From Acidobacteriota bacterium (GTDB taxonomy: Bacteria > Acidobacteriota > Blastocatellia > UBA7656), in the NCBI GenBank assembly GCA_038040445.1, contig JBBPIG010000018.1, positions 1 to 64,000 of the forward strand: DNA of 64,000 bases, written 5' to 3'. The position numbers were made by a program, and so were the translations under genes. The notes beneath the pieces are model-generated. The model was not told the DNA's origin, did no database searches, and saw nothing but the letters and a program-made list of their open reading frames with translations. The stretch's first letter is position 1, and each line of letters begins with the position of its first letter. Shown here piece after piece: positions 26,861-31,576 of this stretch.

Positions 26861-26934
26861 CATGGAGTTCAGGCTTTAGCCTGGTAGTACTTTCCTCTTT
26901 TGACACACTACCAGGCTAAAGCCTGAACTCCATG
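26861..26934. repeat. Perfect 28-bp hairpin (CATGGAGTTCAGGC family)
   Basis: Arms 26861-26888 and 26907-26934 are exact reverse complements with an 18-base loop. It follows the stop at 26843 and precedes the pheA promoter. There is no run of T, so it is not a standard terminator, but it could stop read-through or stabilise the upstream mRNA. A structurally similar perfect 28-base pair occurs at 44162-44244. Confidence 0.9.
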
Positions 26935-26944
26935 CCTCGTCAGG

Positions 26945-26974
26945 TTGACAGGTTTCGCCTCTCTCACGGATAAT
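26945..26974 (+). promoter_or_regulatory. Sigma-70-type promoter of the pheA-aroF operon
   Basis: A consensus -35 TTGACA (26945-26950), an 18-base spacer, and GATAAT (26969-26974; 5 of 6 matches) predict transcription starting near 26981. It is 26 bases upstream of the leader-peptide ATG and would give a ~230-base leader before pheA. Confidence 0.7.
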
Positions 26975-27006
26975 CGGCGAGCTTGAGAAAACAGTTGGGA
27001 ATTCAA

Positions 27007-27135
27007 ATGAATTTTTTCGCATCACGAATTGACCGTCACCCGAACCGCGCGCATACCAAAGTGCGGCGTTCTTACTTCTCGTTTAGCGTCTTTAGCTTTA
27101 GCACCGCAACAGGAGCGGGGGGCGCGATGGTTTAG
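27007..27135 (+). CDS. Phenylalanine-rich leader peptide of the pheA attenuator
   Basis: A 42-residue frame beginning MNFFASRIDRH and containing a dense Phe/Tyr block SYFSFSVFSFST at residues 22-33 (five aromatic codons within nine: Tyr, Phe, Phe, Phe, Phe). Two more Phe codons are at 3-4. It lies between the operon promoter and an intrinsic terminator in front of pheA, the classic position of a sensor peptide. A ribosome starved for Phe-tRNA would pause on the block at about 27073-27099, just upstream of the antiterminator strand at 27112. The ribosome site is weak (TTGGGA). Confidence 0.75.
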   Translation: MNFFASRIDRHPNRAHTKVRRSYFSFSVFSFSTATGAGGAMV

Positions 27136-27204
27136 ACCGAAATCCAATCGCACAGGTTTCAGAAGCCCGCTCCTTCCACGAAGGCAGCGGGCTTCAAAGT
27201 TTTT
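27112..27204 (+). terminator. Attenuator: antiterminator/terminator pair before pheA
   Basis: The terminator stem is GAAGCCCGCT (27162-27171) with AGCGGGCTTC (27186-27195), perfect over 10 bases. An inner CCTT/AAGG stem extends it, and T(5) at 27200-27204 follows. The left arm, extended as CCCGCTCC (27166-27173), is also exactly complementary to GGAGCGGG at 27112-27119, inside the leader frame just after the Phe codons. Pairing of those two blocks would prevent the terminator. This gives two mutually exclusive structures controlled by ribosome position, as in pheL/trpL attenuators. Confidence 0.75.
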
Positions 27205-27216
27205 GGGAGTGGTTTG

Positions 27217-28083
27217 ATGGAAGATAAGAACAAAGACAGCACATTGACGGTAGCCTTCCAGGGCGAGCGTGGAGCCTTCAGCGAGGACGCCGCGCGCAAG
27301 CTTCTCGGCGCCGACATTAAAATCCTGCCTTGTCGAGCGTTCGAGGAAATGTTCGACGCCGTGTCATCAGGCGCGGCCGATGCAGCCGCTGCTCCGATCG
27401 AGAATAGCCTTGCCGGTTCGGTGCATAAGAACTACGACCTGTTGATGGAGCACGACCTCACCATCACCGGGGAGACGAACCTGAGAATCGTTCACCACTT
27501 GATCGCGCCGCGCGGCGTTGCGCTGTCAGATGTTCGCCGAGTTCATTCTCATCCGGTCGCGCTCGCGCAATGCGAGAAGTTCCTGCGCGCCAATCCTCAG
27601 ATCGAAGTGGCACCCGCTTACGACACTGCGGGCAGCGTCAAGATGATTGTCGAGAGCGGCTCGAAGGTGGAGGCGGCGATTGCCGGAGCTACCGCGGCCG
27701 AGGTCTACGGCGCCGAGATCATCGCCGAAGGCATCGAAGACAACGCGAAGAATTTCACGCGGTTTCTTCTGTTGGCGCGCCCCGATCGAGCGGATTCGAT
27801 CAAGACGACGTCAAATCAAGAGCAGCGAAAGACATCGATCGTCTTTCGGGTAGCGAACAAGCCGGGCGGATTGTTTCGCTCACTGGCCGCGTTCGCGCTG
27901 CGCGACATCGACCTGACTAAGATCGAATCGCGACCCATCGAAGGCCGCCCGTGGGAGTACTCGTTTTATCTTGACCTGATCGGCGATCCACACGAGCCTC
28001 ACGTCGAGCGAGCGCTTGCGAATCTGGCAGAGCTTGCCGAGAGCGTGCGCGTGCTGGGGAGTTACTGGAGAAGTGAAGGGTGA
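27217..28083 (+). CDS. pheA: Prephenate dehydratase
   Basis: Converts prephenate to phenylpyruvate in phenylalanine synthesis. The 288-residue protein is the monofunctional form: a periplasmic-binding-like catalytic domain (about 1-190) with FQGERGAFSEDAA, the APIENSLAGSV substrate site and the conserved NFTRFLLL end with the key Thr, then an ACT regulatory domain (about 200-285, KPGGLFRSLAAFALRDIDLTKIESRP) that senses Phe. The ATG at 27217 follows a GGGAG; the TTG one codon earlier is also possible. It is preceded by a transcription attenuator and followed by aroF, making an operon for aromatic synthesis. Confidence 0.95.
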   Translation: MEDKNKDSTLTVAFQGERGAFSEDAARKLLGADIKILPCRAFEEMFDAVSSGAADAAAAPIENSLAGSVHKNYDLLMEHDLTITGETNLRIVHHLIAPRGVALSDVRRVHSHPVALAQCEKFLRANPQIEVAPAYDTAGSVKMIVESGSKVEAAIAGATAAEVYGAEIIAEGIEDNAKNFTRFLLLARPDRADSIKTTSNQEQRKTSIVFRVANKPGGLFRSLAAFALRDIDLTKIESRPIEGRPWEYSFYLDLIGDPHEPHVERALANLAELAESVRVLGSYWRSEG

Positions 28084-28143
28084 TGCGTGAAACGTGATGC
28101 GTGACCGGTCCTTTCCAGTCACGCATCACGAATCACGCATCAC
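28080..28143. repeat. Inverted CGCATCAC repeat between pheA and aroF
   Basis: Arms 28080-28105 and 28118-28143 are reverse complements with 2 mismatches in 26 bases and a 12-base loop. Each arm is made of two copies of GTGATGCGTGA. The left arm overlaps the pheA stop. A hairpin here would sit in the operon mRNA and may uncouple the two genes or shield the upstream message. The same motif is arrayed at 15365-15442. Confidence 0.85.
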
Positions 28144-28172
28144 GGCGCCTGGTACCAAAAGGAGAATTAGCC

Positions 28173-29192
28173 ATGATCATCGCGATGAAATCAAATGCAA
28201 CCGAAGACCAGATCGAAGAGGTCTGTGAGAGCATCCGCCGATACGGCTACAAGCCTCACGTCATACGAGGCGAAGAGCGAGTCGTCATCGGCGCGGTCGG
28301 TCACGGCGACAACAAAGACCACCTGCAAAATCTGCGCTCGGTGCCGGGCGTCGAAGACGTCGTTCCGATACTTCAGCCTTACAAAATCGTAGGCCGCGAG
28401 CTGAAGCCGCAGCGAACGATTGTCCGCGTCGGCGATCTGGAGATCGGCGGCAAAGAGTTTGTCGTGATGGCTGGGCCTTGCTCGGTCGAGACGCGCGAGC
28501 AGTTGATGGAAACTGCCGAAGCCGTCAAGCAGGCAGGCGCCCAGGTGCTGCGAGGCGGCGCCTACAAACCACGGACTTCGCCTTATGACTTTCAAGGTCT
28601 TGAAGTCGAAGGGCTCAAGCTGCTGGCCGAAGCGCGCGCTCTTACCGGGCTCAAGATCGTGACCGAAGTCGTCACCACCGAAGACACCGAGGTCGTCGCC
28701 GAGTATGCCGATATCCTTCAGGTCGGCGCGCGGAACATGCAGAACTTCGCTCTACTGAAGAGACTGGGCAGCGTCAAACGCCCGGTGCTCTTGAAGCGAG
28801 GGATGAGCTCGACAATCAAGGAGCTTCTCTTGTCGGCCGAATACATCGCGTCACACGGCAACGATCAGATAATCCTGTGTGAGCGAGGCATTCGAACCTT
28901 CGAGACCGCTACGCGCAACACGTTGGATCTGGCAGCGGTTCCGCTGTTGAACGAACTGAGTCATCTGCCCGTTGTAGTCGACCCCTCCCACGCAACCGGC
29001 CGCAGGAGCCTGGTTCGCCCGGCGGCAAAAGGCGCAGTGGCTGTGGGCGCCGATGGTTTGCTCATCGAAGTTCACCCTCGTCCGCAAGAGGCCTGGTCGG
29101 ACGGCCCACAGTCGCTGACGCCTCCAATGTTCGCCGAAATAATGACAGAGCTGCGCGAGTACGTGCGGCTGGAGTCTCGCTACCTGAATTAA
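28173..29192 (+). CDS. aroF: 3-deoxy-7-phosphoheptulonate synthase (DAHP synthase, type I-beta)
   Basis: Catalyses the first step of the shikimate pathway, joining PEP and erythrose 4-phosphate. 339 residues. An N-terminal ferredoxin-like regulatory domain (about 1-70, [17 protein letters not shown]) precedes the barrel with [45 protein letters not shown] and [12 protein letters not shown], which supply PEP, metal and substrate contacts. The start at 28173 follows AAAAGGAG. It shares the operon and attenuator with pheA, so both the entry and the Phe branch of the pathway respond to the same signal. Confidence 0.95.
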
Positions 29193-29291: not shown

Positions 29292-30176
29292 ATGGCATTA
29301 CCTGAACTGAGACTCGCCGAAAACGTCGCCGGCGATTTCTTCGTCGACAGCACTTGTATCGACTGCGATCTCTGCCGTCAGATCGCTCCAGACACTTTCT
29401 CGAGCGCCGGCGATCAATCAATAGTTCATCACCAGCCAGAATCACCCGAACAAGAATTCGCGGCGCTCAAAGCTCTAGTCACCTGTCCGACCGCTTCAAT
29501 TGGAACGCTCAGCGGCCGCTCGGCGAAAGCGGCTGTAGCAGCTTATCCTGAGTTGATAGAAGATGGCGTCTACTTCTGCGGCTTCGCGTCCGAGTCGTCA
29601 TACGGAGCGTCTAGCTACCTCATCGCCCGCCCCAACGGGAACGTGCTGATCGACTCGCCTCGTTTCGCGAGTCCGCTGGTCAAACGCATCGAGAAGCTGG
29701 GCGGCGTGAGGCTCATGTTCCTAACTCATCGCGACGACGTCGCCGACCACGAAAAGTGGGCCGGTCATTTCAACGCCGAGCGTGTTATGCATAGCGACGA
29801 TATCGGCCGCTCTCTGTCCGGCATCGAGCGCGTGCTCGCCGGCCGCGAAGCCGTTCAGCTCGACGACGACTTGTTGGCTATCCCGACTCCCGGGCACACA
29901 CGCGGGCACACGGTATTGCTCTACCGCAACCGATATTTGTTCTCGGGTGATCATCTCTGGTGGTCCGAGTCTTACGAATCACTTCACGCGTCGTCGAACG
30001 TGTGCTGGTATTCGTGGACGGAGCAGACTCGCTCAATGGAGCGCCTGCTCGGTTACCGATTCGAGTGGGTACTGCCTGGACACGGACGCCGGGCTCGTTT
30101 AAGCTCGTCGCTTATGCATGAGCAGCTCGAGCAATGCGTGGCGCGAATGAAGCGCCGCTCGCGAGCAGCAAGTTGA
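29292..30176 (+). CDS. Ferredoxin-domain / metallo-beta-lactamase-fold hydrolase
   Basis: 294 residues. The N-terminal ~75 residues form a small 4Fe-4S ferredoxin (CIDCDLC at ~22-28 plus a late CP at ~65). The rest is a metallo-beta-lactamase fold: THRDDVADH replaces the usual HxHxDH (the first His of the pair is Thr-His spaced differently), with TPGHTRGH, SGDH and LPGHG for the other metal ligands. Similar fusions occur in cyanobacteria and plants. A redox-linked hydrolase is likely; the substrate is unknown. There is no clear ribosome site before ATG 29292. Confidence 0.8.
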   Translation: MALPELRLAENVAGDFFVDSTCIDCDLCRQIAPDTFSSAGDQSIVHHQPESPEQEFAALKALVTCPTASIGTLSGRSAKAAVAAYPELIEDGVYFCGFASESSYGASSYLIARPNGNVLIDSPRFASPLVKRIEKLGGVRLMFLTHRDDVADHEKWAGHFNAERVMHSDDIGRSLSGIERVLAGREAVQLDDDLLAIPTPGHTRGHTVLLYRNRYLFSGDHLWWSESYESLHASSNVCWYSWTEQTRSMERLLGYRFEWVLPGHGRRARLSSSLMHEQLEQCVARMKRRSRAAS

Positions 30177-30202
30177 TTGCCGGCTTCGAACCAAACAATT
30201 TG

Positions 30203-31576
30203 ATGAAAGGCGCTAAACCATTGAGCTTTACTCATTCTCGGATCGCGGGGTCCAAACTCGCGGCAATCGGCGTGGCCGCCTTCTTAGCCCTGGTCGCGTT
30301 CGGGCAAAGCCAACCGCGCAAGGAATCCTCTCAAATCCGTCTCGCGTTGAGGCTGTTCAACGACTCCCGCTTTTCGACGCCGCAGGGCGATCTTCAGAAT
30401 AGCTGCGCTTCGTGCCATCTAATGGACGAAGACCCGCAGGGCATGAGGGCCCACACCGATTTCTTCGCCCGGAGCTGGGTGCCGTGGCGCGCAGGCGATC
30501 CGCGCCGCGACGGGTTGCGCAACGCGCCGACAATCTTTGATTCGGCGTTGATGCCGCGTCTTCACTTCGACGGGGAGTTCAGCTCGCTGGAGGAACTGGT
30601 CAAGGGAACGCTCGCCGGACGCGCGATGGGATGGTTGCCGGGCGAAGAGGAGCAGGCATTCGATCGGGTCTACAGAATCATTTTGGATGACAATCGCGAA
30701 GGCAGCGGCAATGAAACGAATTATCGTGCGCAGTTCAATGCCGCATACGGGGTCGATCCCACAACGCTCAGCAAGAGCGAAGTTGTCAACGGTGTCGTGA
30801 AAGCCCTCGCGGATTATATTCGAACGCTCAAGACCGGGCGCACGGCGCCATACGATCGTTTCGTTCAGGCGAACGGATTGGACTCCGGACCCGCGGATGG
30901 CGAAGACCCAAAGCTGCTTGCGAACCGGATTCTGGACAAGGTCGCGACGCTCGAAAAGTCACGAACGCTGAAGCTGCCCGGCGGGTTTGACGCCGCTGCG
31001 CTGAGCGGGTTGAAGGTATTTTTCCGCACCAGTGGGAGCGGGTCTATCGGCAACTGCGCCGCGTGTCACACGCCGCCGCTGTTCACGGACTTTTCGTTTC
31101 ACAACATGGGCATCAGTCAAAGCGAATACGATCAGGTGAACGGCGCTGGCAGCTTCGCCGAACTGGAAATCCCCGCCGCCGCCCAGGCCCGGCGCCCTTC
31201 CCCGCAGTTCCGCGAGACTCCTTCGAAGCGGAAACCCCGATACGCGGATCTCGGCTTCTGGAACTTCGTGGATCTCAAGACCTCGCCGCTTCGCGGCGGT
31301 GATGAGAGTGACGATCAGTTCCTGCAGCGAATGACCGCGGCGTTCAAGACTCCGACCCTGCGTAATCTGGCGTTCACCCAGCCGTATATGCACACCGGCG
31401 GCTTCACTACGCTCGAAAGCGCACTGACCGAGATCATTCGCTTGAGTGAGTTGGCGCGCGCGGGGAAAGTGCGAGAAGGCGATAAGCAACTTTCCAGAAT
31501 CAATATCACCGAAGCGGACATAGCTCCGCTAGTCGCGTTCCTTGGAACGCTGAACGAAGAATTAAAGCCGCGTTAG
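30203..31576 (+). CDS. Di-haem cytochrome c peroxidase family protein
   Basis: 457 residues from ATG 30203, with a signal or anchor helix at ~15-35. Two haem sites, CASCH (~70) and CAACH (~283), mark a MauG/CcpA relative. The second-domain TPTLRNLAF...PYMHTGGF carries the distal Met/His region. The protein reduces peroxide or oxidises a substrate in the periplasm. It follows the MBL gene by 26 bases. An upstream in-frame start at 30134 would overlap the MBL gene and adds no signal sequence. Confidence 0.87.
   Translation: MKGAKPLSFTHSRIAGSKLAAIGVAAFLALVAFGQSQPRKESSQIRLALRLFNDSRFSTPQGDLQNSCASCHLMDEDPQGMRAHTDFFARSWVPWRAGDPRRDGLRNAPTIFDSALMPRLHFDGEFSSLEELVKGTLAGRAMGWLPGEEEQAFDRVYRIILDDNREGSGNETNYRAQFNAAYGVDPTTLSKSEVVNGVVKALADYIRTLKTGRTAPYDRFVQANGLDSGPADGEDPKLLANRILDKVATLEKSRTLKLPGGFDAAALSGLKVFFRTSGSGSIGNCAACHTPPLFTDFSFHNMGISQSEYDQVNGAGSFAELEIPAAAQARRPSPQFRETPSKRKPRYADLGFWNFVDLKTSPLRGGDESDDQFLQRMTAAFKTPTLRNLAFTQPYMHTGGFTTLESALTEIIRLSELARAGKVREGDKQLSRINITEADIAPLVAFLGTLNEELKPR

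Follow-up and report, generated by a model that had tools for sequence, protein, structure and literature searches.

Organization of the pheA-aroF control region

The window, that is, the whole 64-kb stretch of DNA that was analysed, is a contig of a genome (G000) belonging to family f1, which shares its class with family f6 (Blastocatellia by the nearest named relatives). Those relatives are genomes of Blastocatellia and Chloracidobacterium, in agreement with a placement in Acidobacteriota. An earlier note made from the sequence had described in it a complete Phe-specific transcription attenuator of the ribosome-mediated kind, placed in front of pheA-aroF. Both genes were identified above the NCBIfam cut-offs, and on re-reading the sequence, the promoter, the 42-codon leader, the Phe/Tyr block, region 2, the terminator and the T5 run were all found where the note had put them (Table 1). 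The parts follow one another in the order promoter, leader with its Phe/Tyr block, antiterminator strand, terminator and pheA-aroF.

Table 1. Features of the pheA-aroF control region and of the two genes behind it
Feature	Position	Strand	Remarks
sigma-70-type promoter TTGACA-18-GATAAT	26945..26974	+	TTGACA 26945-26950, GATAAT 26969-26974; 11/12 consensus matches
Leader ORF MNFFASRIDRHPNRAHTKVRRSYFSFSVFSFSTATGAGGAMV, 42 codons	27007..27135	+	ATG 27007, TAG 27133-27135
Regulatory Phe/Tyr block YFSFSVFSF, codons 23-31	27073..27099	+	last Phe codon 27097-27099, 12 codons ahead of the stop
Region 2, antiterminator 5′ strand GGAGCGGG	27112..27119	+	folding and pairing comparisons
GCGAT/ATCGC stem separating region 2 from region 3, leader stop codon in the loop	27124..27151	+	folding; relatives
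Region 3 CCCGCTCC	27166..27173	+	partner of region 2, or left side of the terminator
Terminator hairpin GAAGCCCGCTCCTTC...GAAGGCAGCGGGCTTC with T5	27162..27204	+	T5 offset by 4 nt; homologous stem covaries in f6
pheA, prephenate dehydratase with ACT domain	27214..28083	+	PRK11898, 246 bits, cut-off 219 (NCBIfam)
aroF, 3-deoxy-7-phosphoheptulonate (DAHP) synthase, second gene of the operon	28101..29192	+	PRK08673, 507 bits, cut-off 335 (NCBIfam)

The promoter was the only promoter-like match within 1 kb in a promoter scan. The leader holds 6 Phe and 1 Tyr, and no clear Shine-Dalgarno sequence was seen upstream of its ATG at 27007. Pairing of the left terminator strand with region 2 was found to be perfect, as the earlier note had it (CCCGCTCC, 27166-27173, with GGAGCGGG, 27112-27119), and refolding of positions 27100-27187 yielded exactly that helix. 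The terminator stem is formed by GAAGCCCGCT (27162-27171) and AGCGGGCTTC (27186-27195), and with the inner stem CCTTC/GAAGG included, the hairpin reaches 15 pairs, interrupted by one bulge. The T5 run is present, though not directly at the stem as had been supposed, since it occupies 27200-27204, 4 nt past the stem, with AAAG in between. Because of this gap, the predicted terminator was not called by a simple terminator scan of the window. The computed folds are close in energy (terminator -26.7 versus antiterminator -24.6 kcal/mol). Translation of pheA starts at TTG 27214 or, more likely, at ATG 27217. As a check on chance, the two strands of the 64-kb stretch were screened for short ORFs with a Phe/Tyr cluster; of the six present, the pheA leader was the only one followed by a terminator.

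Two further observations were made in the surroundings of this locus. An inverted repeat, perfect over 28 bp (ATGGAGTTCAGGCTTTAGCCTGGTAGT..) and with a hairpin energy of -52 kcal/mol, lies at 26862-26935, in the interval that separates the promoter from the gene upstream of it, and its core palindromes have no other copy within the window. At 30134-31573, an ORF resembling a MauG/MbnH-type di-heme enzyme overlaps the 3′ end of the preceding metallo-beta-lactamase-fold gene.

Conservation in families f1 and f6

All genomes sampled from the two families (f1, 7/7; f6, 7/7) carry, ahead of pheA, the promoter, a leader rich in Phe and Tyr, an antiterminator strand and a terminator. The earlier note had held that attenuation would be contradicted if relatives lacked the Phe block or the complementary strands; the device persisted in both families, which supports the ribosome-mediated reading. 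The claim of Phe specificity stood as regards the sensing of Phe, but not of Phe alone, given the Tyr codon in the window and up to 3 Tyr in relatives.

Sixteen leaders of f1 and f6 were compared. In 13/16, a promoter with 10-12 of 12 consensus matches and a spacer of 17-18 lies 21-66 nt ahead of the leader start, and L010 is a fourteenth with a recognisable promoter, a weaker 8/12 variant. More than half of the leaders start with ATGAA(T/C). The last Phe (or Tyr) codon precedes the stop by 12 codons in 14/16, and the last sensing codon and region 2 are separated by 13-15 nt, as the size of a ribosome requires. All 16 leaders place Phe/Tyr codons in a short ORF ahead of a Phe-biosynthesis operon, an intrinsic terminator stands between the leader ORF and pheA (in the window, 4 nt separate its stem from the T run), and region 2, just 3′ of the regulatory codons, forms with region 3 a predicted helix that excludes the terminator. 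What is conserved in this comparison is a unit: a promoter, a leader ORF with its Phe/Tyr block, and predicted 2:3 and 3:4 helices that exclude each other.

The gene order pheA-aroF is kept in G004 and G015. In G002, a locus found by the f1 covariance model (L091) carries a DJ-1/PfpI-family gene between the Phe/Tyr attenuator and pheA, which suggests that the Phe regulon gained this gene. In the remaining families of this class (f2-f5, f7, f8), no convincing leader was found before pheA.

Selection on the RNA

In one leader (L006), region 2 is read in another frame (PKERVAR; FSFSSPKERVAR up to the stop), yet GGAGCGGG and the Phe/Tyr block are intact. Since the frame changed and the nucleotides were kept, it is the RNA and the Phe codons, and not the peptide, that would be under selection there.

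In a set of 22 elements that represent 11 families, the duplex of region 2 with its own region 3 had a mean of -18.2 kcal/mol versus -15.5 kcal/mol with permuted partners, and 6 of 100,000 permutations reached the mean of the true pairs, figures that are inflated by relatedness, the sequences being kin and G+C-rich. Shuffling region 2 weakened the duplex in 21/22 elements. More weight is given to compensated pairs, because relatedness inflates the permutation figures: between families, the 2:3 pairing is kept by altered strands in G019 (GAAGGG/CCCTTC), G387 (GGTGCGG/CCGCACC), G112 (AGCGGGTC/GACCCGCT) and G035 (GAGGGGCC/GGCCCCTC). Inside f1, where the helix barely varies, no covariation of the 2:3 helix was detected, and inside f6 it showed one double change. 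The compensatory case for the predicted 2:3 helix is therefore one of between-family comparison. The terminator stem of f6 displayed 9 double changes, a number that none of 500 shuffles equalled.

The stem that holds the stop codon has counterparts of altered sequence at the same place in relatives, namely in L014 of f6 (AGTTCTG/CAGAACT), L012 (CTCGCT/AGCGAG) and L013 (CTGCGC/GCGCAG). A 1:2 anti-antiterminator is strong in L009, L010 and L079; in the window its pairing is not significant (z 0.83), and a hairpin of this kind is not convincing in the window genome.

Other pheA leaders in the phylum

The covariance model R1, built from 6 f1 sequences, matched 8 of 396 genomes of the phylum at E<=0.01, each time ahead of pheA or aroF, and these matches included three families absent from the model (f85, f86 and f30), all before phe genes. 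Of the two models built from f6 leaders, R2 had its terminator pairs two columns out of register, so that its matches are in effect sequence-driven, and R3, with the correct terminator register, gave 7 matches at E<=2.5e-5, again all before pheA or aroF. The families also found each other, R1 matching f6 and R2/R3 matching f1 with E of 1e-5 to 1e-8. Leaders at the R1 and R3 matches include MNQRTGFTFSPYFYFFPCGERA, MNIAKSRGRFVFTSSLGAGGGFV, SSGFYFYFTPETGRCGPPA (C-terminal part) and MQHNRSAFRFFSRMSAACLIV. Five of the weak R3 matches (below about E 1e-4) were inspected and left uncounted, being mostly plain terminators 3′ of unrelated genes, with one intracoding.

When the regions upstream of 80 pheA genes chosen across the phylum were scanned in a general way, 3 hits were obtained under strict criteria versus 1 on the opposite strand, and 12 versus 10 loci under looser ones. 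Because this barely exceeded the opposite strand, leaders outside f1 and f6 were accepted solely if a terminator also lay just before pheA; further pheA leaders with a terminator were thus found in f28, f29, f33 and f35. No Phe leader was seen in the 13 pheS upstream regions checked. The locus had been presented as a notable case in an Acidobacteriota-type genome, and a clear case it is, but not an isolated one, as scattered other families of the phylum have it.

Leaders for other amino acids

In the same class, leaders rich in Ile, Val and Leu and followed by terminators were found before ilvB (L203, L204, L206, L207, L208, L209, L210, L214 and L215). Long complementarity between region 2 and region 3 was present in 8/9 (z about -3 to -6.5; for instance, GGATGACGGTC/GGCCGTCATCC in G002), and the ninth, in G019, has a leader and terminator with weak pairing (z -0.9). 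A search for ilvB in the window genome itself returned no match at E<=1e-100.

His-rich leaders (HIHLCHHHVH, VHHHVHHHH and HLHHVHHHRH) precede hisG in f3, f50 and f77 (L241, L244, L246), and Trp-containing leaders precede trpE in f3 and f28 (L229, L231). His and Trp leaders are likely in a few relatives; these cases are weaker, because the pairing was not significant or not scored and terminators were not found in all. Among the f1 and f6 genomes checked, that of the window included, none had a His or Trp leader upstream of hisG or trpE.

In f50 and f77, a Val-rich leader, VLVGVVVVVTVV, stands ahead of pheA. Val-rich leaders followed by a CCATCATCC...GGATGATGG terminator directly before pheA were found at L125, L114, L107 and L119 (G288, G183, G281 and G258, respectively), and in the three genomes checked (G288, G258 and G281) an ilv operon begins with pheA. 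The arrangement is pheA-ilvB-ilvN-ilvC in f50, and pheA followed by ilvD and ilvBNC in f77, the names ilvN, ilvC and ilvD having been read from translations, without a family search. In both families, the putative sensing codons match the operon and not only its first gene. Such tracking of operon content by leader content, with a Val-rich leader where pheA heads an ilv operon, counts in favour of attenuation.

Proposed mechanism and alternative explanations

From the arrangement and its conservation, it is very probable that the pheA-aroF control region is a ribosome-mediated transcription attenuator through which the availability of charged tRNA-Phe (and tRNA-Tyr) governs the operon. Under a shortage of Phe-tRNA, a ribosome on the leader would stall in codons 23-31; halted at the last Phe codon (27097-27099), it would shield the RNA as far as about 27111, region 2 (from 27112) would be free to pair with region 3, and the operon would be transcribed. 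When Phe is ample, the ribosome would get to the stop codon (27133-27135), where it would mask region 2 and, in the role inferred for the stop-codon stem, open this stem along with it, so that region 3 would pair with region 4 and transcription would end at the T run. Such a geometry is the one known from classical attenuation. The 1:2 hairpin, where strong, would give termination without translation. Points that speak against this reading are the offset of T5, the lack of a clear Shine-Dalgarno sequence ahead of the leader, the near absence of covariation of the 2:3 helix inside f1 and f6, and the non-significant 1:2 pairing in the window.

The same hairpin might be an unregulated intrinsic terminator or read-through barrier, with the short ORF an accident of a Phe-rich frame. 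Terminators of like shape are common in these genomes, as most of the weak R3 matches inspected illustrate, and the T5 run is offset from the stem. However, the hairpin sits between a promoter and pheA, a terminator follows just one of the six Phe/Tyr-cluster ORFs of the window, and the Phe/Tyr block, the 12-codon stop distance and region 2 are conserved in 14/14 genomes of two families, which makes an accident very improbable.

Smaller still is the probability that the product of the leader ORF is a small protein with a function of its own, the RNA helices being of secondary importance. The C-terminal residues of the ORF (GAGGAMV, SRGVGSSLA) do look conserved inside families, but this conservation tracks the nucleotides of region 2, as L006 makes plain by keeping them in a different frame, and the N-terminal half is not conserved. 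If a T-box, a riboswitch or an RNA-binding regulator, and hence a small ligand or a protein, exerted the control in place of a translating ribosome, it could draw on the stop-codon stem, an extra structure that a factor could bind. Nevertheless, no Rfam family, T-box and riboswitch aptamers included, gave a match in the window or in the f1 and f6 relatives, and the invariant features are in-frame Phe/Tyr codons and their spacing to the stop, which the ribosome alone can read; this kind of control is thus given the same very slight chance as a small protein.

Relation to known attenuators

Ribosome-mediated attenuation as proposed here resembles the gamma-proteobacterial pheA/pheST attenuators (RF01859, Phe_leader) in its Phe-rich leader ORF, in a region 2 right after the Phe codons, in the alternative 2:3 and 3:4 helices and in its target gene, pheA. 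It differs from them in showing no sequence or Rfam match, in mixing Phe with Tyr, in the extra stop-codon stem and in a monofunctional pheA followed by aroF. The leaders are also longer, with 32-52 codons and a long non-regulatory N-terminus, against the 15 codons of E. coli pheL.

Leader-peptide attenuators exist in Actinobacteria and Firmicutes (PMC1262725; His leaders, PMC2965389); the mechanism is the same outside Proteobacteria, in other phyla and before other operons, and sequence homology, sought through Rfam, was not found. In Acidobacteria, Naville and Gautheret (2010) predicted attenuators, almost none of them with an associated function (PMC2965389), in contrast to the present case, in which a putative sensor, ligand and target operon are assigned. 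No leader-peptide attenuator in Acidobacteriota was found in the open literature, although a prior prediction in the survey of Lopatovskaya et al. (2010) is possible. The mechanism is classical; the novelty lies in how broadly Acidobacteriota seem to use it.

Leader-peptide attenuation seems to be in wide use across this phylum, where such switches are largely undescribed. It is fairly probable that Acidobacteriota use ribosome-mediated attenuation generally for amino-acid operons (Phe/Tyr, Ile/Val/Leu, His and Trp), largely unrecorded, and that leader codons were re-specified when operon content changed. The pheA-aroF locus provides a complete, testable case in a phylum whose predicted attenuators had almost no assigned function (PMC2965389), and like devices in relatives, found before phe and ilv operons and probable before his and trp operons, bear on the age of ribosome-mediated attenuation, or on the frequency of its re-invention. 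The exchange of Phe/Tyr for Val codons ahead of the same gene, pheA, amounts to a natural test of codon-specific sensing.

The Rfam model RF01859 had no match in the window at the gathering threshold, and at E<=1 it returned solely a weak, sub-threshold match in Bacteroidota (L080). In this locus and in L081, both from Membranihabitans, pheA is preceded by leaders rich in Phe and Tyr (NNNFFYFYFFSGSGEGI; NKYYFYFFSSIPKWI), along with a GGTCC/GGACC hairpin.
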